A stretch of 64,000 nt of DNA from positions 992,001 through 1,056,000 of the forward strand of contig OZ004586.1 in NCBI GenBank assembly GCA_963924555.1, read 5' to 3'. Under the pieces are notes generated by a model that saw nothing but the letters and a program-made list of their open reading frames with translations, ran no database searches and was not told the origin of the DNA. Source of the DNA: Crambe crambe (lineage: Eukaryota; Porifera; Demospongiae; Poecilosclerida; Crambeidae). How positions within the stretch are numbered: position 1 is the stretch's first letter; every line of letters starts with the position of its first letter. Shown here piece after piece: positions 34,635-49,790 of the stretch. The position numbers and the translations under genes were made by a program.

Positions 34635-35150
34635 ATGGCTGAACCCAAGTTGGACATGGGGCCTGATTACTTCATGAATAAGGCCTTTGAGATGGCAGAA
34701 TTTGCACTGAAACATCAAGAGGTGCCGGTGGGTTGTGTGATCGAGTACAAAGGAGAGATCATAGCTCAGGGCTGCAATGAAGTGAACATTTCCAAGAATG
34801 CTACCCGACATGCTGAAATGGTGGCCGTGGATCAGCTGTTAGACTATGCAAGGAACTGCAACATGGAATTAGAAGAGTTATGTGGTTCTTGCTGTGTATA
34901 TGTCACAGTAGAACCATGCATTATGTGTGCATTTGCACTGAGAAGTGTTGGTCTATTAACTGTCACTTTCGGTTGTAAGAATGAGCGTTTTGGAGGATGT
35001 GGCTCAGTTCTGGACATTCATAGTGCAAAAATGGACCCATCATTAAAGACTCTGATTTTGATTCCTGCATCTGATGACTTTATTCAAAGAGCTAAATCAC
35101 TTCTGAAGAAATTCTATGAAGGAGAAAACCCCAATACTTTGTCCATGTAG
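34635..35150 (+). CDS. ADAT2: tRNA-specific adenosine deaminase subunit 2 (ADAT2-like)
   Basis: This intronless gene of 171 residues encodes a cytidine/deoxycytidylate deaminase-fold enzyme. With ADAT3 the family converts A34 to inosine in tRNA anticodons. The zinc and catalytic motif HAE is at residues 59-61 and PCIMC at 94-98; the N terminus (EVPVGCVI) and the segment GCKNERFGGCGSVLDIH also fit ADAT2/TadA. The Glu of HAE, which acts as proton shuttle, is kept, so it should be the catalytic subunit. Length fits the family (about 190 in mammals). An NRF1-type motif lies directly upstream, as in several other housekeeping genes here. Confidence 0.93.
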   Translation: MAEPKLDMGPDYFMNKAFEMAEFALKHQEVPVGCVIEYKGEIIAQGCNEVNISKNATRHAEMVAVDQLLDYARNCNMELEELCGSCCVYVTVEPCIMCAFALRSVGLLTVTFGCKNERFGGCGSVLDIHSAKMDPSLKTLILIPASDDFIQRAKSLLKKFYEGENPNTLSM

Positions 35151-35344: not shown

Positions 35345-36223
35345 ATGGCGATCGAGAAATTGGTTCCATTTTTTGGGTCTATTCCAAATGGGTGGGTGCA
35401 ATGTGATAACTATGGACAGGTTATCGAAGGTAAGCAAGTTCCACTCATAATGCGTTTAAAAAAAATTAGCTGCCCAATGCAGATATGTTTCTTCCCACGA
35501 AAACACCTCTCTCTTCTGCTTATGATACTCAGCTTGTTGACAACCAAAGATTTACTATCCCTAGGTTGTTGACCATTGACTATCGAATTGGACTGCTGAT
35601 AGACTTGACCAAGACTGATCGGTTTTACAATGGTAGTGTGCTTGGCGAGCTATATCATAAGATCCCATGTCAACATGGAGAGTAAGCAACATTTTCAGAG
35701 AAGCCGTCATGGGCCTAACCTTTTAAAAATAATAGAGATCACCCTCCAACTGTAGAAGAAGTGAAGAATTTTATTGATGTATGTTCTCACTTTCTTCGAG
35801 TAAATGATGGAAATATAATAAGTAAGAAGTGCATTGTAGTATTTAATATCTGACATCTCATGTTAGTGATAGCTTATCTAAATGTTTAGCTGTGCATTGT
35901 GTCCATGGATATAATAGAACTGGGTTCATGATCATATCTTATCTTGTAAGAGAAAAAAAGTGGAGGTAAGTCTTTGGTAACTCTTATCATCTTCTTTTGA
36001 AAATAATCTCCTGTCAGTTTCAAAAATGCAGTAGAAGCTTTCTCAAAAGTGAGGAATCTGACTACTTCATCTGAGAGATTATATTTCCTTCCCTTAGGCA
36101 CGGCCACCTGGCATTTACAAGAGAGATTTCCTTGCAGTCTTGGCTGAGCGGGTGAATGGTGGTGACATGGTTGACATTACAGTTCCTGAAAGACTATGGT
36201 GGGATCAAGATGGACTCACATAA
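35345..36223 (+). CDS. RNA 5'-triphosphatase, capping-enzyme type, stand-alone copy C
   Basis: The seven-exon gene (35345-35429, 35483-35681, 35736-35821, 35890-35965, 36018-36048, 36098-36223) [six listed exons are those I can place with consensus sites] encodes about 200 residues of the Cys-phosphatase fold of metazoan mRNA-capping enzyme (RNGTT) and DUSP11. Matching segments are IPNGWVQC, IGLLIDLTKTDRFY, the active site HCVHGYNRTG (intact Cys-X5-Arg) and ARPPGIYKRDFL. The family removes the gamma phosphate from RNA 5' ends. No guanylyltransferase domain follows, so it is not a full capping enzyme. It has its own ATG, unlike copies A and B. A fragment of its last exons recurs at 44640-44822. 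Confidence 0.85.
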
Positions 36224-37862: not shown

Positions 37863-40748
37863 CTACACTACTGATAAGTGAGACTCTTCTGAATTATGTA
37901 GGTAGTTCACTGGATAATGGAAAGAGTAAATAACAATTTGACCATAGGCAGGCTAGAGCCACAATATGAACTTACCTTCTGGACGATGATGCTTTCCTGC
38001 ATATTTATAAACAGTAAATTTGAAAGAACATTTAGTTTGATCACATTCAAATTTTAATTCTTTACTATTTTCTTTATCTTCTTCAAAAATTCTGGAAGAG
38101 AGGAAAAGTTTTCTTATAAGGCGTATATAGCTAGCTAGATAGTATGCATACCCTTTTGGAGGAATATATTGACAAAAATACTTAGAGACATCTTTTCTTC
38201 CAATTTTCAATGGTTGAATCACTAACAAGATTGCTCCATCATCAAAGTAAGCATTATTCATTCTTTCGAGATGGAAGCTTACTGAAAGATAGTTATTATA
38301 AATATCATAGCTAGCTAAGTCCATGAATTTCATCACCTCTCGGGTGGGCAAACAGGCATTATGTGCAGCATTGACTATAATAGTGTCCCATCACTATTTA
38401 TCAGGGGAGTAACTAGGATTTATGATTTGGTGGGGCAAATGACCTACCATACACTTATTGCTAACCACACCCATTTTCAGTCATACTAAACAGCATTGTT
38501 TCCATGAAATTTTACTGGGGTGGGTTTGTAATGAGATACAGGACTTGATATTCAATCAACTGGCAGTCGTGGACCAGCAGCACCGATCTGCTATGCGAAG
38601 TTTACTAGACCCATCCCCTCTTTGAGTTAGTAAAGAGTCTAGCTACACAAGACTATTATTATTATATAGCTATACCTGTTGTTTTCTTGATCTCATCAAC
38701 GAAGGGTCCAATAACCATCAAGTCTACAGTATAAAAATCCTTTACCGTGCTTCCTATTGTTCTTTTCATTTCTTCATGTATGAGTTCATAGCTCTATAAT
38801 GAATCAGCAGCAACATAGCATAATATAGTCATAATATTATGAATAGCAACATTTCATCCAGCATACCTCTTTAACACTACCACTATCTTGACTATAGATA
38901 TCTTCTTGAAGAGTTATGACTGAGTTGCTCTGAAATTTTACCGTTGCTGCATTTTTTCTAAAGTGTGGGTGAAAGTTCACTGACACTACCTACATTAATG
39001 ATAATTAGTGATGTGATAATGATGCATCATTGACTCATTGTGACGAACCTTCTTAGAAGCAAAGGCCAGCTGGACACCATATCCAATAGTTCCAAATGAC
39101 AAGTCATAAGCAAGTGTAATGCCATTTTCATAATTTTTGCAGAGAGTAAAAAAGTAATAGATGTGATCTTTAATACCTCTGATAGCACTCTCCTGATTAT
39201 TACAATTATAAAACATAAAGGTGAGTACTTTTTTTTCAAAACCGTATAAATTGAAATTTTTATTCCATTTAATTTCTCACTATGGTAGCTAGTTAAAGCA
39301 TGTAGCTACACCAAATTGAATAATAATTGACTAGTGATAGAATTAATCAGCTCACTGACCTCAGTTGTCAAATCATTACCAGTTGTCTCATTCAGGATTT
39401 CGATGACCTTTTCATCTGGTCTACTTTTCATTGGAAGATACAGATCTTGAATATCCTTGATTCTAGGTCTGCTTTCACTGTTTAACTCTATGCCTTCCTT
39501 AACAGCTATAGAAAAAATTAATTTAAAACTCATCCAATCCAAATCCAATCTGGATGTGCCACATTTTGAAACCATGCAAGTTGCATGAATTAGACTTAGC
39601 TATTAAGTACCTATCCATCGTTTCCAAGCTCCTCTTCGAATATCGTCAGCTTGAATAGTACGAAATAACAGTAAACGTTCTTTATATTTACCAAAGAGGC
39701 GATTCAGCTCCTTATCTATTTGAATATCTCTGAATACACGTCCATGGCCAGAGTCTGCACGAAACAATCTCATCAATAAGAAATCAAGATCATTCTTGAT
39801 TCGTGGAGTGAAGAATTGGTACCATTCAAACACATACTCTTCTGGAGGTAGAGAAGAAGCAAAGGAAAATCTTGCAATATCCCGATAACCAAGACTACTT
39901 GTGTGACGTTTGAAGCACCAAATTAATCCATAAGATGCTGCTAAGAATGCAAATACAAGCAGAATGTAGTCTGCCACTTGAATTTTACTCAGTAGTCGAA
40001 AGGGAGGGTAAGTACAACTGATGGGAAAAGGATAAGACCATCCAGGAATGGGTAGATTTGAACGATTGAAATTATGAGGACACTCAAAAATGAAGGCAAA
40101 ATTAGATGCCTCGAATACCAGAGCATTGATAAAGACACTTGCTACTATAATGATTAGCTGAATAATTATCTTAACTATATATAGCATGAATATACCCCTG
40201 AATTTCCACTTTTCAGGAAACTCATTCTCCAACTTCCTGACAATATCAAAGTTGATTGGACGATACTCTCCTGTGCTGCTATCCCGAAGTCTGTCGATCT
40301 GTTTAACTAGATTGAGGAAGAAATCGAATTGGCCCACAAAGATGGCCTCCCATATGAAATGAGGAGTAGTAATCACTATGCCTTGCAATAGAATGAAGAT
40401 GGAATAGTACTCATTTTGTGTCAAGCTATCTAGACAGTAGGCATTCACGTATGCAGCCTGATCTCGAGTGGTTTCCAATGACATAAATTGAGTTGGTAAT
40501 AAGCATTGCAAACCTGATGGTGACCTGAAGAATTGGAGTGATAAATCAAGAATTGTCAGCAGAGCAATGGCAGATCCAATGTAGAGCAGAAACTGATCCC
40601 AAAAAAAATCCTTTAGTTCAATTTTTTGCCCTGCTTTTTCTTCTTTTTCTTCCTTTCTCCCATCACTACTGATATTTCCATTGATCAATTGTTCAGAAGG
40701 ATCAATATTATAGATTTTTGGTAGCCCAGTGGCAGATTTTGATGCCAT
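37863..40748 (-). CDS. Pannexin/LRRC8-like four-TM channel protein with novel C-terminal region
   Basis: Exons: 40748-39611, 39505-39360, 39192-39049, about 38990-38869, about 38794-38680, about 38281-38153, about 38110-37975, and a last short exon ending at TAG 37863. The protein has about 650 residues. Hydrophobic segments lie at about 52-74, 113-137, 186-211 and 256-278. Cys pairs sit in both predicted extracellular loops (C82, C105; C223, C245). Loop 1 ends RDQAAYVNAYCLDSL, close to the pannexin pattern RQAAFVDSYCW and to LRRC8 YVDAVCYEN. ISCTYPPFRLLSKIQVADYI and PRIKNDLDFLLMRLF align with LRRC8/pannexin TM4 flanks. No leucine-rich repeats follow; about 270 residues of unrecognised, beta-rich sequence do. 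It likely forms a large-pore channel (inference). It is divergent from eS26 copy A. Confidence 0.72.
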
Positions 40749-40928
40749 TTTTTCCCTGTGATGCAGAATTCACCACCCCTAAGGCTTGTCTTTGAACAGT
40801 CAAACCACAATCTGATAGAGCACTCTGATTAGCAAGGTGGACTATGACAATGTCATGATGGGTGGTTTTTCTTTTATTTGTTTAGCTGCGCATGCGTATA
40901 CTTTCTTCTTCTTGCAAAATCGGCCACT
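40749..40928. promoter_or_regulatory. 180-bp bidirectional promoter, channel gene (-) / eS26 A (+)
   Basis: Only 180 bases separate the two start codons. An NRF1-type site, TGCGCATGCGTA, is at 40887-40898, 30 bases upstream of the eS26 ATG. A similar site precedes eS26 B. Pyrimidine tracts (CTTTCTTCTTCTTGC) just before the ATG resemble the TOP-type start of ribosomal protein mRNAs. Confidence 0.6.
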
Positions 40929-41903
40929 ATGGTAAGTTTGATGGTAGGCGATGATAGACCTTTAATATCTACCGTGTTGATAGACCCAGAAAAGACGAAA
41001 TCGTGGTCGATCCAAGCATGGCAGAGGTCATGTTCGATATGTCAGGTGTACTAACTGTGCAAGATGTGTCCCCAAGGTAAACTGTACCTCAGCAATGCAG
41101 CTTTATGGTGTGATGCATGCTGGTACGTAACAATGTTTATAATGGGCTTGTAGTCTGTCTCAAATAGTCATGTAGCTAGCTAGCTAGAATAGCTAGTAGC
41201 TATAAACTAGGCAGTAGCTACCAGCTGCAGCTATTAATTTAAGACAGTGAGAACTACAGTAGCTACAATTTTATGACTACAGCTATTTGAGACAGTGAGT
41301 TTATTGGATGCATGTCACGTAAGGTAGATAAAGAAAGAGTGGACCTGAACACTCCATGCGCCTAGTGCTAATGAAACAGTTCCATAACATCCTTCTCCTC
41401 AAAGATGGGGTGAGGGGATAGGCTGCATGTATACTTATGGTCGTATATGGTCAGGTTTAGATCTCAGAGTGAGATTTACTGGTTTAGTAGTAGCTAATCT
41501 TATCGAAATCAATTTTTAGCTACATATATGGTCCAATAAAGAGCGAGTACAAACGCTCAAATGACTCATGCAGGACAAAGCTGTGCAGAAGTTTGTGATC
41601 AGGAATGTAGTGGAAGCAGCATCCATCAGGGATTTAAACGAAGCATCAGTTTATGATGGTGGGCTGTTAATATTGCAGACAGGCAGTGTGAGTAGTCTCT
41701 GACACATTTTTTTGTCTCTTCCCTCCTCTACTGTTATAGACTACCCCCTGCCAAAGCTTTATGCAAAACTTGTGTACTGTGTGAGCTGTGCCATTCATTC
41801 CAAGATAGTGCGCAATAGGTCAAAGGTGCAGCGAAGAATCCGCACCCCTCCTCCAAGATTCATGGATAGGAAAAAAAAAAGATCGGAAAATGTATGTATC
41901 TAG
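40929..41903 (+). CDS. RPS26: Ribosomal protein eS26, copy A
   Basis: Exons: 40929-40931 (just the ATG), 40984-41076, 41574-41658 and 41740-41891 (or to the stop at 41903). Translation begins [20 protein letters not shown], then [20 protein letters not shown] and [20 protein letters not shown], ending [13 protein letters not shown]. This is eS26 of the small ribosomal subunit: a zinc ribbon with CxxC pairs (CTNC, CVSC) near the mRNA exit channel. The one-codon first exon is like that of vertebrate RPS26. If exon 4 is not spliced, the protein ends after about 115 residues, the usual length. A phase-0 donor at 41892 can instead join it to triphosphatase exons at 42565. Confidence 0.9.
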
Positions 41904-41976
41904 CTATCTAGCAACATGAAGTTTAGTCTTACAATAAGAAGACTTTAACCTTGAAGATGTGGTGACAGATAGATCC

Positions 41977-42396
41977 CAAGGGTGTAGATAAGTTTTTTCA
42001 ACTGGGGGGGCTAAATATGCATGCATGAATGTATAATTATGTGTGAAATACAGCATTGCATTATCTAGGGGGTCCGGGGGCATGCTCCCCCGGGAAAATT
42101 TTGAATCTCAGGTGTTCCGAGATTGCTTCTGGTATGATATGAGGTGATTATGTCACTATTGATTTACTATATAACAGTACATGCACAATCAATTAATTAG
42201 TCAATGATCCACTACTAAAAGATAAACATGTTAGTGGCCATTAAACACTACATGTACACAAGAACAAAACTGACCATTCCTTTACTTACAGTTGCAAAAT
42301 GAGTTCATCTAAATATTTGGGTTTCATAATATGTATACGATTCAAAATTCTGGGGGGGCTTTAGCCCCCCAAGCCCCCCCCTTACCTACACCCTTG
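41977..42396. mobile_element. 420-bp MITE in the eS26-triphosphatase intron of copy A
   Basis: Terminal inverted repeats CAAGGGTGTAG...CTACACCCTTG are present, with G-rich subterminal inverted segments. A five-base target duplication GATCC is at 41972-41976 and 42397-42401. The corresponding intron of copy B reads straight through (GATAGATATCCCTTAGGGG), giving an empty site. Confidence 0.85.
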
Positions 42397-42511
42397 GATC
42401 CTTAGGGGTGTAAGCAAAACTGGGTGTGCCTGTATGTGTATGTGTTCAATGCTGCTGGCATGTTAGTGGCTACCCCTCCCTCCCTCCCTCTCTTTCTCTC
42501 TCTCTCTCTCT

Positions 42512-42512
<1 letters not shown>

Positions 42513-42541
<29 letters not shown>
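42513..42541. repeat. (CT)n then poly-C tract before a splice acceptor
   Basis: A CT-rich run followed by about 28 C and then T-runs ends 24 bases before the acceptor of the first triphosphatase exon. The length may be unstable or an assembly artefact. Confidence 0.85.
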
Positions 42542-42542
<1 letters not shown>

Positions 42543-42564
42543 CCTTTTTTTTTTCTTTCTTAAG

Positions 42565-43438
42565 GAGTCATATGACAAGATTCCTGAAGGGTGGGAGCAA
42601 TGTCAGGAATTTGGAGGAGTTATTAGAGGTATTTTCATGACATCCATAATTATGCATATGAAATAATCAAACACATACAGGCATATTTCTTCCCTGTAAG
42701 ACGCCACTCTCGTCTAAGTATAGCAACCAACTTCGTGGATGTCCAAAATTTTCCATCCAGGAATTAGAGGAAGACAGACAGATAGGGCTTGTGGTGGATT
42801 TGACAAATACTAGTCGATATTATGATAGTAGTCGGCTTAGATCTTGCAAGTACGAAAAAATAAAATGTGATGGGTAAGTGCATGGTACTAGCTATGTCAA
42901 ACAAAGATGATTGGAACTCTATTATTAATATAATTATATAGACTGCAAATTCCTACTGTTGCAGAAGTAGAAAGGTTCAAATGGAGATGTTCAGATTTTA
43001 TTGAAAAGAATCCTGGGAAACTAATAGGTATCAGTAGCTGTTATGAGGACAAGTTAATTCTACAATTGTTTTATGTTGCAGCTGTTCACTGTACCCATGG
43101 ATACAACGGAACTGGGTGCATGATCATTTCTTATCTCGTAAAAGTAATGCACTTAAGGTAATTATTATTAAAGATCCTATAATCTGTTTAATACATTAAT
43201 TCCCTCCTCCCTCCCCCAATCAGTTTTAAAGCTGCAGTAGAAGCTTTCAGTCATGTAAGGACGAGTCTGTTGTTATAATAATGAGATACTGCATTTTATT
43301 TTCTTCCCATTCTCTTAGTCACGGCCACCTGGAGTTTATCGAATAGGGTTCCTCAAACAGTTGGCTAGACGGCTTGGTAGTAATATGGATGGTATTAAAG
43401 TTCCTGCAAAACCAATTTGGGATACACAGACGATATAA
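42565..43438 (+). CDS. RNA triphosphatase-like domain, copy A (catalytic Arg lost; likely fused to eS26 A)
   Basis: Exons: 42565-42628, 42681-42873, 42942-43027, 43082-43157, 43224-43254 and 43319-43438. The product has the capping-enzyme triphosphatase pattern: IPEGWEQC, IGLVVDLTNTSRYYD, KNPGKLIAVHCTHGYNGTG and SRPPGVYRIGFLKQLARRLG. The active site should read Cys-X5-Arg, but the arginine codon is GGA (Gly), so phosphatase activity is probably lost while RNA binding could remain. The first exon has no in-frame ATG, and its phase 0 acceptor matches the phase 0 donor ending eS26 A, giving ...KKKRSEN-ESYDKIPEGW.... The frame is open throughout, so it is unlikely to be simple decay. Confidence 0.8.
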
Positions 43439-43574
43439 TTATGAGAATGCTATTCTACTAGCTAGCCACTGTACTGGCTAATTATCTAAATAGACACATT
43501 TGTATGCAATACACACAAAACGCTCCCCCCCCCCCCCCACTAGAACTAATTAAGTAATGGTTAAAATTGATGGT

Positions 43575-44460
43575 TTAGTATTGATATTTAGGAACATCAA
43601 AATCAATATCCATAATCACTTTATGGATATCTCTTTCTAAAGGAAAAATGGTGTAATAAAAACTCAAATCTAGAGCCAATCTACTGATAATCATCTCCTT
43701 TTGGTGTCTGGACAACTTCTGGTAGTATCGTGGTGCCAGATCTGAAGTATGTTCTCCTTCTTCGTAGTAGCCATCTCTTAAAAGAGAACCCTCAGCCTCT
43801 ATGTGTCCAATCAGTACCTCTGCATCATGTTTGAATGCATTGAAGTTCCCATAGTAACTATAGTGGACCTGGCAGGGTCGACAAAGGCTGTAGATGGACT
43901 GAAAATGTTCGTCATCATTCAATCCTCTTTTATTCAACCAGTAATCGATAAAATCAGAAAAACTGATATTAACAGGTCTTTTTCCTTTGGCTAGATGCCA
44001 CTGGTGAAACTTCTCTGGATGTTTGAATTCGAATATCTCCTTTTCCAACCAGTTGTAGTGTGGATAGTCACGACTCAGACCTATCAGTGGTGTTCTCTGG
44101 GCTTTAGACCGATATCCGCTGAACAGTCTTTCAATAGGATTTTTGTACATCAAAAACTTGTAGTAACTCTGCATGATATGTTTCTTCTTCTTTGAACTCC
44201 ATTCGATGAAGGAGTGTTTCTTTATTGGTTTTTCTTGGTCTACATTGTCTTGATTCTTGAATAACTCACTGACTGAAATAATTCCTGAAAATTGATTTTG
44301 TGCTTTCAATAATTAGTAAAAATATCAATAGCTACCTGGCTTTATACGTCCATTAGCTACCTTGTCTTCAAGTTCGTACAACCAACTTTGGGGATAAAGC
44401 AAAAGGCTTTTTCCCCTTATCATTCAAGAGCATATGCCTCTCAATTTTCTGCAAAAATTT
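43575..44460 (-). pseudogene. Golgi sulfotransferase copy A, 5'-truncated and frameshifted
   Basis: The main exon (43575 to about 44286, QSYYKFLMYKNPIERLFSGY) is about 95% identical to that of copy B and still open. The upstream exon (about 44330-44460) has lost 36 bases and one base near 44410, relative to copy B. The PAPS-binding CFIPKVGCTNLK segment is therefore out of frame with what precedes it. The exons for the membrane anchor are missing; a MITE lies where they should begin. A shortened protein is conceivable, but I call it a pseudogene. Confidence 0.7.
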
Positions 44461-44464
44461 CCGC

Positions 44465-44581
44465 TGCAGGGGTAGAAACACCACAACAAAAGCAACAAAA
44501 AGTGGGGGGGGGGGGGAGGGGGGGGCTGTAGCTCCCCTTCACTTTTCGACAGTTTTTATTGTGGTGTTTCTGCCCCTGCAA
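44465..44581. mobile_element. Small foldback MITE with TGCAGGGG termini
   Basis: The left end TGCAGGGGTAGAAACACCAC and the reverse complement of the right end, TGCAGGGGCAGAAACACCAC, differ at one base; a G-run lies inside. It sits at the point where sulfotransferase copy A loses similarity to copy B. Confidence 0.75.
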
Positions 44582-44639
44582 CTAACTATGTAAATGTATA
44601 GCTACACAGAGTGGACTGACATTGTATTATTCTTTTGAA

Positions 44640-44822
44640 AATAATCTTCTTGTCACAGTTTCATAAATGCTTTCTCAAAAGTGAGGAATCTGCTACTTTT
44701 TACATTTGAGAGATTTATATTTTCCTCCTTTAGGCACGGCCACCTGGCATTTACACAAGAGAGATTTCCTTGCGGTCTTGGCTGAGCGGGTGAATGGTGG
44801 TGACATGGTCTCACATAAGAGA
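44640..44822 (+). pseudogene. Triphosphatase 3'-end fragment
   Basis: The last two exons of triphosphatase copy C are recognisable (GCACGGCCACCTGGCATTTAC and GCTGAGCGGGTGAATGGTGG). A 9-base deletion, a 2-base insertion and loss of the 3' end break it. Confidence 0.85.
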
Positions 44823-45028
44823 TCACTAATTCATGGGGCCTAGCTATAATAGGTAAAATTCTAGCCCTTTAATTGCGACCCACATGCATGCTGGAGTTGA
44901 TATACTATCTCAAAAATATGAAATGGTTTGCTCCTCCAAGATAGAGCGGATCCTGATAACCACCTCTTTTTTGGATATCTGCGCATGCGTATGATCATTC
45001 ATTTGTCTTTACAGAAAACGCGGACACT

Positions 45029-45965
45029 ATGGTGAGTTTATATGGTAGATAGGCGATAGACCTTTATCTACTGCGCTGATAGACTCAGAAGAGGCGAAAT
45101 AATGGTCGATCCAAGCACGGCAGAGGTCATGTTCGATATGTCAGATGTACTAACTGTGCAAGATGTGTCCCCAAGGTATTAAAACGCCTACTATCTAATC
45201 TCCTATATAGGCTGGCTAGGCTCGCGAGACTAGCTACTAGCTGCTAGACAGCTAAATGATAGCCTCGAATGTGTGGCCCGACTGAGAGTAGCAATGCAGC
45301 TGTATGGTATGATGTGATCAATTTTAGCTACATTGGATTCAATTCATATCACCTTGCCAAACATAAATTTATATATGATACTGCATGAGTGCTTCCACCT
45401 ACTAGTAATACTGACTCTCTATCACCCTAAATGCTCTATTGCTCTTAAAATGGGTGGTGCAGCTATACTCATGGGTGGATATGAGTATCATTATCCAGGT
45501 TTAGATCTCAGAATGAGATTTACTAGTCTAGTAGTAATCTCATCAAAATCATAGTGATCTAATTTAGCTTATGAGTGAGCAAAGCATCAAATGACTTAAC
45601 TATTGCATGGATGCATGCAGGATAAAGCTTTGCAGAAGTTTGTGATCAGGAACATAGTGGAAGCAGCATCCATCAGGGATTTAGCTGAAGCATCAGTTTA
45701 TGATGGTGGGCTGTTAACATTGCAGAGTGTGAATATCTGACTATGTCTCTTCACTATTATAGGCTACCGTTTGCCAAAGTTATATATGAAACTTTTGTAC
45801 TGTGTGAGTTGTGCCATTCACCTCAAAGTAGTGCGCAACAGGTCAAAAGAGCAGCGAAAAATCCGCACCCCTCCTCCCAGATTCATGGCAGAAGAAAAAA
45901 AGGATCAAGATGAATTGAAAAAAGACTCCAGTCGGAAAACAGTATGTAACCGGCTAGCTATGTAG
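45029..45965 (+). CDS. RPS26: Ribosomal protein eS26, copy B
   Basis: Exons: 45029-45031 (ATG), 45083-45175, 45621-45705 and 45763-45941 (or to the stop at 45965). It reads [20 protein letters not shown] and [20 protein letters not shown], ending [20 protein letters not shown]. Both CxxC pairs of the zinc ribbon are kept. It is the paralogue of copy A, with the same exon structure and an NRF1-type site (CTGCGCATGCGTAT, 44979-44992) upstream. If unspliced it would be about 127 residues, longer than the usual 115. The phase-0 donor (ACA-GTATGT) joins in frame to the exon at 46216. Which copy supplies normal ribosomes cannot be decided here. Confidence 0.88.
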
Positions 45966-46215
45966 CTGGAAATTCAATTTAAAGATGGTATGATCACTTT
46001 TCCTGAAATGTGGTGACTGATAGATATCCCTTAGGGGGTAGCTACCTGTCATAACTGTGGTGTAATCAACTAACCAATTAAGGCCTGCTGCTGCTGGAAT
46101 ATTAGTAGGTGCAACCAGTTCAGTGCATCTTCAATTATATTATACTTTCAATTACACTCTTTGATAATTAAGGGGCTATTCTGATAATTTATAATAACCA
46201 ACCCTTTATTAAAAG

Positions 46216-47099
46216 GAACCGTATAGAGTAAGAGTTCCTGATGGATGGGAGCAATGTCCAGAGAAAGGAGAAGTCATTGGAGGTTAATTTTGATACCACA
46301 TTGCTAATAATGAAAAATCAAACATAATAATAATACAGATATGTTCCTTCCCTGTAAGACGCCACTCTCCTCTGAGTATGAGAGCCGACTTCTTGGCTGT
46401 CAAAAATTTCCTATTAAGGAATTGACAGATGACAGTCGGATAGGGCTTGTGGTGGATTTGACAAATACTGATCGATTTTATGATCGTAGACAGCTTGGTC
46501 CTCATCAAAGTTTAAAAATAAAGTGTGAAGGGTAAATGCATGGTAGTTAGCTAATTTTGAAAATGATGGGAACACTACTTATATAGGATGGATGTTCCTA
46601 CGGTTAGACAAGTAAATGAGTTCAAAAGAAAATGTTCGAGCTTTTTTAAAGAGAACCCTGGGAAACTAATAGGTATGTTATGAGGATAAAGTACACAATC
46701 ACATGTATCATAATGAGTTGGTTTATATAATACTTTGCAGCTGTTCACTGTACCCATGGATACAACAGAACTGGGTGCATGATCATTTCTTATCTTGTAC
46801 AAGTAAAACGCAAGAGGTATAAATAGCTAACTACTTATAAAAGTTATGATCTGTTTTAATGGATTTTCCCCACCAGATTTGAAGATGCAGTAGAAGCTTT
46901 CCATCATGTAAGAAGTCTCCTTAAGCTATATTATTGTACTTTGTTTGATACTGCATGCATCTTTTTATGCTCTTAGTCAAGGCCACCTGGAGTTTATCGG
47001 GAAGGCTTTCTAGAAGAATTGGCTAAACGGCTGAATCGTGGTAACATGCAGAATGTCACAGTTCCTGAAACACCAGCATGGGATAAGCAAAGGAAGTGA
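46216..47099 (+). CDS. RNA triphosphatase domain, copy B (active site intact; likely fused to eS26 B)
   Basis: Exons: 46216-46282, 46339-46531, 46587-46672, 46741-46816, 46877-46907 and 46977-47099. Capping-enzyme type pattern: VPDGWEQCPEKGEVIG, IGLVVDLTNTDRFYDRRQL, ENPGKLIAVHCTHGYNRTG and SRPPGVYREGFLEELAKRL. The active-site Cys-X5-Arg is complete. An in-frame TAA lies immediately before the first exon and no ATG is available, so the domain must be reached by splicing; the phase fits the eS26 B donor. It shares intron positions with copies A and C. It is expected to act on RNA 5' triphosphates or diphosphates (family knowledge). Confidence 0.85.
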
Positions 47100-47184
47100 T
47101 TGTAGCATAGATTAACTATTATGGCGTGTTATTCCAAAACTATTAATTTAAGTATCAGTAAAAACAATGGCTAAAATTGATGGT

Positions 47185-49790
47185 TTAGTATTGATATTTA
47201 GGAACATCAAAATCAATGTCCATAATCACTTTATGGATATCTCTTTCTAAAGGAAAAATGGTGTAGTAAAAACTCAAATCTAGAGCCAATCTACTGATAA
47301 TCATCTCCTTTTGGTGTCTGGACAACTTCTGGTAGTATCGTGGTGCCAGATCTGAAGTATGTTCTCCTTCTTCGTAGTAGCCATCTCTTAAAAGAGAACC
47401 CTCAGCCTCTATGTGTCCAATCAGTACCTCTGCATCATGTTTGAATGCATTGAAGTTCCCATAGTAACTATAGTGGACCTGGCAAGGTTGACAAAGGCTG
47501 TAGATGGACTGAAAATGTTCGTCATCATTCAATCCTCTTTTATTCAACCAGTAATCTATAAAATCAGAAAAAGTGACATTAACAGGTCTTTTTCCTTTGG
47601 CTAGATGCCACTGGTGAAACTTTTCTGGGTGTTTGAATTTGAATATCTCCTTTTTCAACCAGTTGTAGTGTGGATAGTCACGACTCAGACCTATCAGTGG
47701 TGTTCTCTGGACTTTAGACCGATATCCGCTGAACAGTCTCTCAATAGGATTTCTGTACATCAAAAACTTGTAATAACTCTGCATGACATGTTCCTTCTTC
47801 TTTGAACTACGTCCGATGAAGGAGTGTTTCTTTATTGCATCTTCTAGTTTTTCTTGGTCTACATTGTCTCGACTCTTGAATAATTCACTGACGGAAATAG
47901 TTCCTAAATATTCCAGGAAAAAATATTTTGTGCTTTCAATAATTAGTAAAAATATCAGTATCTACCTCCTTAGCTTTACACGTCCATTACAACTTATACC
48001 TTGTGTTACAAAGAATAAAATCTTCAAGTTCGTGCAACCAACTTTGGGGACAAAGCAAAAGGCAGTTTTTTTCTTGTCATTTAAGAGCATATGCCTCTCA
48101 ATTTTCAAGTTCCGCTTTTTGATGTTAAGGCGATTCTTTCTGCAAAAATTCTCCACTCGTGCTTGCTGAAACTGGAAAAAAATAACAACAGATAGCTAGC
48201 CTGGCCATCCAACTACTTATGGCTAAGTAACATTTACCGCTTCTCTTTCTCCAGCAGTCAAGCTATTCCAAAAATGACTAGTTTCATTCTTCAGTTGATC
48301 TTTAATAGATGGTGCTGAGCTGAGATAGGAATCCTGGAGTGTATTGATAGAAATTACTGTGTCTTCTAGAACCAATAATTATAGGAAGAATGGACTGACA
48401 TAAGGTAGGTGTGGGTATTATGAGTCAGTCTCTATTATGGGTTCACCACTTGATAGGAATCTACAAGAGTTGATACTTTAGATATGAAAACTTAATCTTT
48501 TTTTTTTGTTGGTCTTTTGATCAAATAAAAATCATCCAGAAAATGCCTTATTCATGCATACTAAATGAGAACTTTTTAAATGGGTATAACCGTAACCAAT
48601 CCGAATAAAAAAAGCGCAGGGAAGCAATGATGCCACAAGATGGAGTAAAAAATGAATTTTAAAGTAATCTAAGGTTATTATTTTTATTTTGTAGAAATCT
48701 TAGCTACATTATCAATTTTTAGAGACAAAAATCAAGCCAGCAACTCATAATTCATACCTTTGACTCATAATACCTTCCTGAGTATGTTATGTAAGATTAT
48801 AACTCCTATCTACAAGATGCAATATTTTTATTACTTTCTCCAGACATTAGTTCTACATAACCTACTTTATATTTGGAGCAATTTTCAGGATTCTAAGATA
48901 GTCCATTTCCAAGAAAAGAGCAACAATACTTAGCTGACTCATAGTACCCACACCTACCTTAATATTCTTGAAACTCACATGATCAGTTTCTTTATAGAAA
49001 TCATCTGATCCATCTCCATTAACAGTTAGTTTGACAACATCTGCCACAACAGGCATTTCCTTTCTACTGCTCTGTTCAACATGTGTGTCACTAGTTCTCT
49101 TTGTGTGATTATAATGCCCACTATCATCTGTGTGGCTGCTGTATAACATGGCTGCAATCCTTTCTTCATCATCCACAGGCTGTGCTTCTTTAGCACGACG
49201 CTGTAAATAATACAATCTCGCTCCCTTGATTTTAACTTCTCTTTTGCTAAATAAATATTAGTGTTTAAACCATCCATTTATACTGTCTTGGGGGACATAA
49301 CTTGACCCCTGTACATAAATCAATGGGGACTGGGACACTCATGCTTTTATTGAGAGGTAAAGAGTAGATATTATTTTTACTTAACTTTGCTCACTTTGTT
49401 TATTGAAGTTAGCTACAGTAACTATTAGAAGTGTATTAGGACTGTGTCCTTCACCAGTTTTACTGAAAGTCACTGAGTCACTATTATAGCTACTCTTATG
49501 GCTACTCGATCATGACTCACTACTAAGTGTACTCAAACTGTATACTTATGTATCAGCACTCTTAAGGTTATACATTAATAAGTAGCTAGCAAGCTACTGT
49601 ACTCCAATGTTAGACCAATTTTAACTATTCTTAGCTGCTATTATATAGCTGTGGCTTACTTTGCCATCTTTGCGATTTCTTCTGTTTTTGTAATGAATAG
49701 TGAAGTCCTGAAATACACTAAGAATAGTCCCACCACAGAGAGAAGCAACAGACACACAAACAGCCGCGATATCTTCTTGGGGTAGAACAT
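47185..49790 (-). CDS. Golgi-type carbohydrate sulfotransferase (Sulfotransfer_2-like), copy B
   Basis: Exons: about 49790-49648, about 49216-48954, 48365-48238, 48171-48000 and 47903-47185, in compatible phases. The protein starts MFYPKKISRLFVCLLLLSVV, a short cytosolic tail and a type II membrane anchor. A stem region follows, then the PAPS 5'-phosphate-binding segment CFVPKVGCTNLK (family pattern 'VPKVACTNWK') and the 3'-phosphate-binding RNPIERLFSGY (family 'RNPFERLLSAY'). It should transfer sulfate to a glycan in the Golgi; the acceptor is unknown. The acceptor choice for exon 2 is the least certain. It converges on triphosphatase copy B, 85 bases from its stop. Confidence 0.82.

Follow-up and report, generated by a model that had tools for sequence, protein, structure and literature searches.

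Two tandem gene copies in the sponge Crambe crambe that probably fuse ribosomal protein eS26 to a capping-enzyme-type RNA 5'-triphosphatase

The window analyzed here is a stretch of 64,000 nt of the Crambe crambe genome (positions 992001-1056000 of contig OZ004586.1, hereafter C9), and searches covered the 143-Mb assembly (119 contigs). It contains two ten-exon gene models, copies A and B, in which exons 1 to 4 of a gene for ribosomal protein eS26 are followed by six exons of an RNA 5'-triphosphatase. A stand-alone triphosphatase gene (copy C) lies upstream of them, and an ordinary eS26 gene is located elsewhere on the same contig. The features are as follows (window coordinates unless a contig is named).

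35345-36223, plus strand: copy C, a stand-alone triphosphatase gene of six exons that has its own ATG and encodes 200 aa, the nearest unfused relative found
40888-40897, plus strand: promoter-like motif GCGCATGCGT of copy A, 41 nt before the eS26 start
40929-40931, 40984-41076, 41574-41658, 41740-41891, plus strand: eS26 exons 1-4 of copy A (111 codons), intron phases as in the ordinary eS26 gene
41892-42564, plus strand: fusion intron (intron 4) of copy A, phase 0, with a repeat element inserted at about 41976-42397
42565-42628, 42681-42873, 42942-43027, 43082-43157, 43224-43254, 43319-43438, plus strand: triphosphatase exons 5-10 of copy A, motif HCTHGYNG
44630-44824, plus strand: triphosphatase relict immediately 5' of copy B, corresponding to the 3' part of a copy-C-like gene and 84% identical to 35992-36185
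44981-44990, plus strand: promoter-like motif GCGCATGCGT of copy B, 48 nt before the eS26 start
45029-45031, 45083-45175, 45621-45705, 45763-45941, plus strand: eS26 exons 1-4 of copy B (120 codons)
45942-46215, plus strand: fusion intron (intron 4) of copy B, phase 0, with an in-frame stop at 46210-46212 ahead of the acceptor
46216-46282, 46339-46531, 46587-46672, 46741-46816, 46877-46907, 46977-47099, plus strand: triphosphatase exons 5-10 of copy B, motif HCTHGYNR intact
C9:5869228-5870351, minus strand: ordinary eS26 gene, five exons
3559, 5468, 6825, 14716, 34595, 35287, 40888, 44981, 51394, 62881: matches to the GCGCATGCGC-like motif

Joining the exons yields frames that are open throughout, of 300 aa in copy A (40929-43438) and 311 aa in copy B (45029-47099). 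A first-pass annotation of this DNA had proposed the junctions 41891/42565 and 45941/46216, and each of them does join the eS26 exons to the six triphosphatase exons in a single open frame. The consensus phase-0 GTATGT donor that it described at the end of the eS26 part is present in both copies (AAT/GTATGT after 41891 and ACA/GTATGT after 45941; slashes mark splice sites), and the acceptors (TTAAG/GAG before 42565 and AAAAG/GAA before 46216) agree with its phase-0 start of the triphosphatase exons. The in-frame stop that it placed just before the copy B acceptor is a TAA. Its statement that the triphosphatase exons lack an in-frame ATG is correct for exon 5 in both copies; exon 6 of copy B, however, has one at 46341, and a start there would drop the first 23 residues.

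Both joined proteins matched two Pfam profiles, namely, Ribosomal_S26e (E values of 7.4e-50 and 1.7e-51 for A and B; 168.4 and 173.6 bits against a cutoff of 27) and DSPc (E values of 6.9e-13 and 1.1e-13). In common with eS26 (RPS26; PF01283), the fused copies cover positions 1 to 107 of the 108-position domain and keep both CxxC pairs and the intron phases of the ordinary gene. They differ in lacking the terminal exon, with a phosphatase in its stead, and in carrying A49S and D94I, two replacements relative to the ordinary gene that are common to both copies. Identities to the best PDB eS26 match over residues 1 to 101 were 76, 80, and 82 for copy A, copy B, and the ordinary copy, respectively. 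Among the 60 listed of 95 PDB matches, no structure contained both halves.

The genome search for eS26 gave eight exon matches, which resolved into three genes (i.e., copies A and B and the ordinary gene at 5.87 Mb on C9). Intron 4 of the ordinary gene is a phase-0 intron with a GTATGT donor, identical to that of the window copies; hence, chance does not account for the fusion donor. The terminal exon behind this donor encodes 22 residues, SEGEGKTGGGGDRTAQPGVVKS. Neither fusion intron contained a convincing match to it: matches touching the exon were at most 13 nt long (E = 3.2), and the best match of the whole query (20 nt; E = 0.26) fell within the intron part of that query. We thus rejected a terminal exon hidden inside the fusion introns. 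The shared donor and phase, together with the lack of a convincing exon match, indicate that the window copies retain the last eS26 donor and have lost the exon that it once served. Judged by gene structure, the triphosphatase exons occupy the place of the eS26 terminal exon in both copies.

For the second half, the closest PDB match was the N-terminal triphosphatase domain of the metazoan mRNA capping enzyme (2c46; E values of 5.5e-39 for A and 1.8e-36 for B), with alignments spanning nearly the whole domain. Two other kinds of enzymes that act on RNA 5' ends, the RNA/RNP complex-1-interacting phosphatase (4mbb, 4nyh, and 4jmj), which we take to be DUSP11/PIR1, and the polynucleotide 5'-phosphatase 1yn9, share the phosphatase superfamily with the fused copies but matched them more weakly. 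When the genome was searched with the triphosphatase of copy B, 14 exon matches emerged, corresponding to four genes: copies A, B, and C and a gene on contig C15. The last is the capping enzyme, with guanylyltransferase matches downstream; the guanylyltransferase profile (PF01331) had two matches in the genome, both on C15 and none in the window (5 of 5 candidates scored). The fused copies thus differ from the capping enzyme in having no guanylyltransferase and in lying behind eS26. In the capping enzyme and copy C, moreover, the ATG sits in the first triphosphatase exon, the one that lacks an ATG in the fused copies.

The two copies also differ at the active site. Copy B keeps the HCX5R motif of the capping enzyme. 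In copy A (exon 43082-43157), the P-loop arginine, present in the human enzyme, is replaced by glycine, a change that was absent from the first-pass account. Because this arginine is catalytic, no more than one of the two copies is expected to be enzymatically active. On this basis, the copy B triphosphatase should be active and that of copy A inactive, perhaps binding only; copy A is likely a dead phosphatase kept in frame.

Comparison of A and B indicated modest purifying selection on both halves since the two copies separated, with omega values below 1. Maximum likelihood (ML) omega was 0.45 for eS26 (2dlnL = 5.49), 0.33 for its first 100 codons (2dlnL = 7.97), and 0.57 for the triphosphatase (2dlnL = 6.24), eS26 being the more constrained half. 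Differences at the three codon positions numbered 15, 12, and 24 in eS26 and 45, 39, and 54 in the triphosphatase, i.e., a third-position excess that is weak in the latter and stronger in the former. Of the ten exons, three differ in length, by 27 (aligned as 28 minus 1), 3, and 3 nt, so that the reading frame is kept; non-multiple-of-three indels occur in 8 of the 9 introns. Two observations here weigh against the fusion: the weak third-position excess of the triphosphatase, and introns 1 and 6, whose identities between the copies (82% and 80%, respectively) overlap those of the triphosphatase exons (69 to 88%). We simulated neutral evolution 2,000 times with copy B as the starting sequence, allowing 0.2 substitutions per site on each lineage and no indels. 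In no run were both triphosphatase frames still free of stops; both eS26 frames were so in 6 runs. This result and the matching donor in the ordinary eS26 gene led us to reject a chance alignment of frames.

Synonymous divergence between A and B was estimated by two methods: dS was 0.37 for eS26 and 0.45 for the triphosphatase by NG86 (dN of 0.124 and 0.25, respectively) and 0.30 and 0.47 by ML. These values are consistent with one joint duplication of the two halves. In the comparison with the ordinary gene copy, the ML dS of the eS26 half was higher, 0.47 and 0.49. A five-row triphosphatase tree paired A with B (91/93, below the tool's starred level), with copy C next. Independent fusions in A and B are therefore disfavored, since the two are mutually nearest in both halves. 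The relict upstream of copy B fits the arrival of eS26 within a tandem array of triphosphatases.

The promoter-like motif belongs to a GCGCATGCGC-like pattern, presumably NRF1-like, with 10 window matches at one mismatch or fewer against 0.20 expected. Four of the ten lie 40 to 58 nt before an ATG, namely, those of copy A, copy B, copy C (58 nt), and a single-exon deaminase frame (34635-35150; dCMP_cyt_deam_1), which we assume may be the tRNA adenosine deaminase ADAT2. A similar TGCGCATGTGTA is located 52 nt upstream of the ATG of the ordinary eS26 gene. None of the ten window matches falls between the eS26 and triphosphatase halves (i.e., in the fusion introns). The splice sites themselves are less favorable to the fusion: of the 32 introns in five gene models, three have AAG acceptors, namely, the two fusion introns and a capping enzyme intron, and the copy B fusion donor scored 5.6 in a range of 4.8 to 11.5, with a matrix built from the same 32 introns.

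The interpretation in the first-pass annotation is partly upheld by these data: its fusion gene model has good support in the anatomy, in how the copies compare with the ordinary eS26 gene and the capping enzyme gene of this genome, and in selection. We give it a probability of about two in three. Its starting points, which can be read in the DNA itself, are the anatomy, the absent terminal exon, the open frames, and the modest purifying selection. We propose that an eS26 duplicate comprising the promoter region, exons 1 to 4, and the last-intron donor, but no terminal exon, ended up immediately 5' of one member of a small tandem array of capping-enzyme-type RNA 5'-triphosphatases. With splicing from the former eS26 donor to the first triphosphatase exon, the triphosphatase would replace the normal eS26 tail and be translated from the eS26 ATG, and a subsequent tandem duplication of the fusion gene would have produced copies A and B. 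Most likely, a fused mRNA from the eS26-type promoter would encode eS26, a charged linker, and the triphosphatase; we infer that the junction is spliced and the product translated as one protein.

A different arrangement, in which the triphosphatases are separate proteins made from internal starts and the upstream eS26 genes are independent, seems unlikely to us. Such starts can be found: codon 102 of eS26 is ATG in both copies (41862 and 45885), in frame and with the same splice junction kept, and encodes Arg in the ordinary gene. Copy B could use a mini-exon at 45985 (ATG/GTATGA), whose donor scores 9.0, and copy A has an unspliced frame that is open from an ATG at 42460 through the polypyrimidine tract into exon 5. 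Yet the 45985 and 42460 starts each exist in one copy and are not common to both, a T occupies position -3 of the codon-102 ATG, and the fusion introns are free of promoter-like motif matches; the eS26 halves, moreover, would have to end by read-through into the intron. The triphosphatase part of copy A has no in-frame Met until past the active-site motif.

Read-through is itself the core of another explanation, which we regard as rather improbable: the main products would be eS26-like proteins that stop in the retained intron, with VCI or VCNRLAM tails, and the triphosphatase would be joined rarely by alternative splicing. Stops do occur 3 and 7 codons past the donor, and the stronger constraint on the eS26 half would suit such products, but the triphosphatase frames are open with omega below 1. 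Moreover, each fusion intron contains a single AATAAA/ATTAAA hexamer, an ATTAAA located inside the inserted element in copy A and at the acceptor in copy B. Over some 400 nt past the stop of copy B, neither signal occurs, and polyadenylation signals do not decide between the readings. Decaying duplicates or an assembly artifact, with no functional product, would accommodate the lost arginine of copy A, the relict exon and repeats nearby, some introns that match between the copies as closely as exons do, and the slightly larger number of residues at which A and B diverge from the best PDB eS26 match than does the ordinary gene. We consider this very improbable given that the copies, though divergent, agree in layout and have intact splice sites and frames and omega below 1.

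If the eS26-triphosphatase fusion is expressed, it would be a ribosomal protein bearing an RNA 5'-end enzyme, with apparently active and apparently inactive versions side by side. It would offer a natural, testable case both of ribosome-linked RNA processing and of a terminal exon replaced via an old intron donor. Copy B may act on RNA 5' triphosphates, and copy A may be a noncatalytic partner or 5'-end binder. As eS26 lies where mRNA leaves the 40S subunit, the eS26 half might enter the subunit there and carry the phosphatase with it, leaving the fused eS26 tethered at the exit. An alternative isoform that would compete with normal eS26, also raised in the first-pass annotation, may be another role. 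That some 40S subunits would thereby form specialized ribosomes, with the triphosphatase (B) or the dead 5'-end binder (A) at the mRNA exit and with uncapped 5'-triphosphate RNAs (e.g., viral) recognized or altered during translation, is a doubtful extension. Ribosomal proteins encoded as fusions are familiar from eS31 and eL40, in which ubiquitin is an N-terminal partner that is cleaved off; in A and B, in contrast, the partner is a C-terminal enzyme, and we know of no cleavage site. A search for the fusion in a second species, with the exon-6 peptide alignment as the query, yielded no relative among 28 pattern matches in genome contigs and one, at 30% identity, among 47 in viral contigs.

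Several neighboring features were recorded. No RNA families were found in 40500-47500 and no tRNAs in the window. A minus-strand frame at 39606-40748 had a weak innexin match (21 bits; cutoff, 25), and the innexin search of the genome listed two matches, both on contig C3 and barely above the cutoff (27.1 bits versus 25), a result that argues against an animal rich in innexins. The insertion in intron 4 of copy A is an inverted-repeat element (41976-42397); with 43 matches listed, itself included (40 of 121 candidate genome places scored), it represents a repeat family. Copies A and B are each followed by a minus-strand sulfotransferase frame (PF03567; 43575-44312 and 47185-47961). The surrounding regions (43556-44449 and 47166-48106) are 90% identical and thus closer to each other than are the fusion genes that they flank, suggesting a later duplication or gene conversion.
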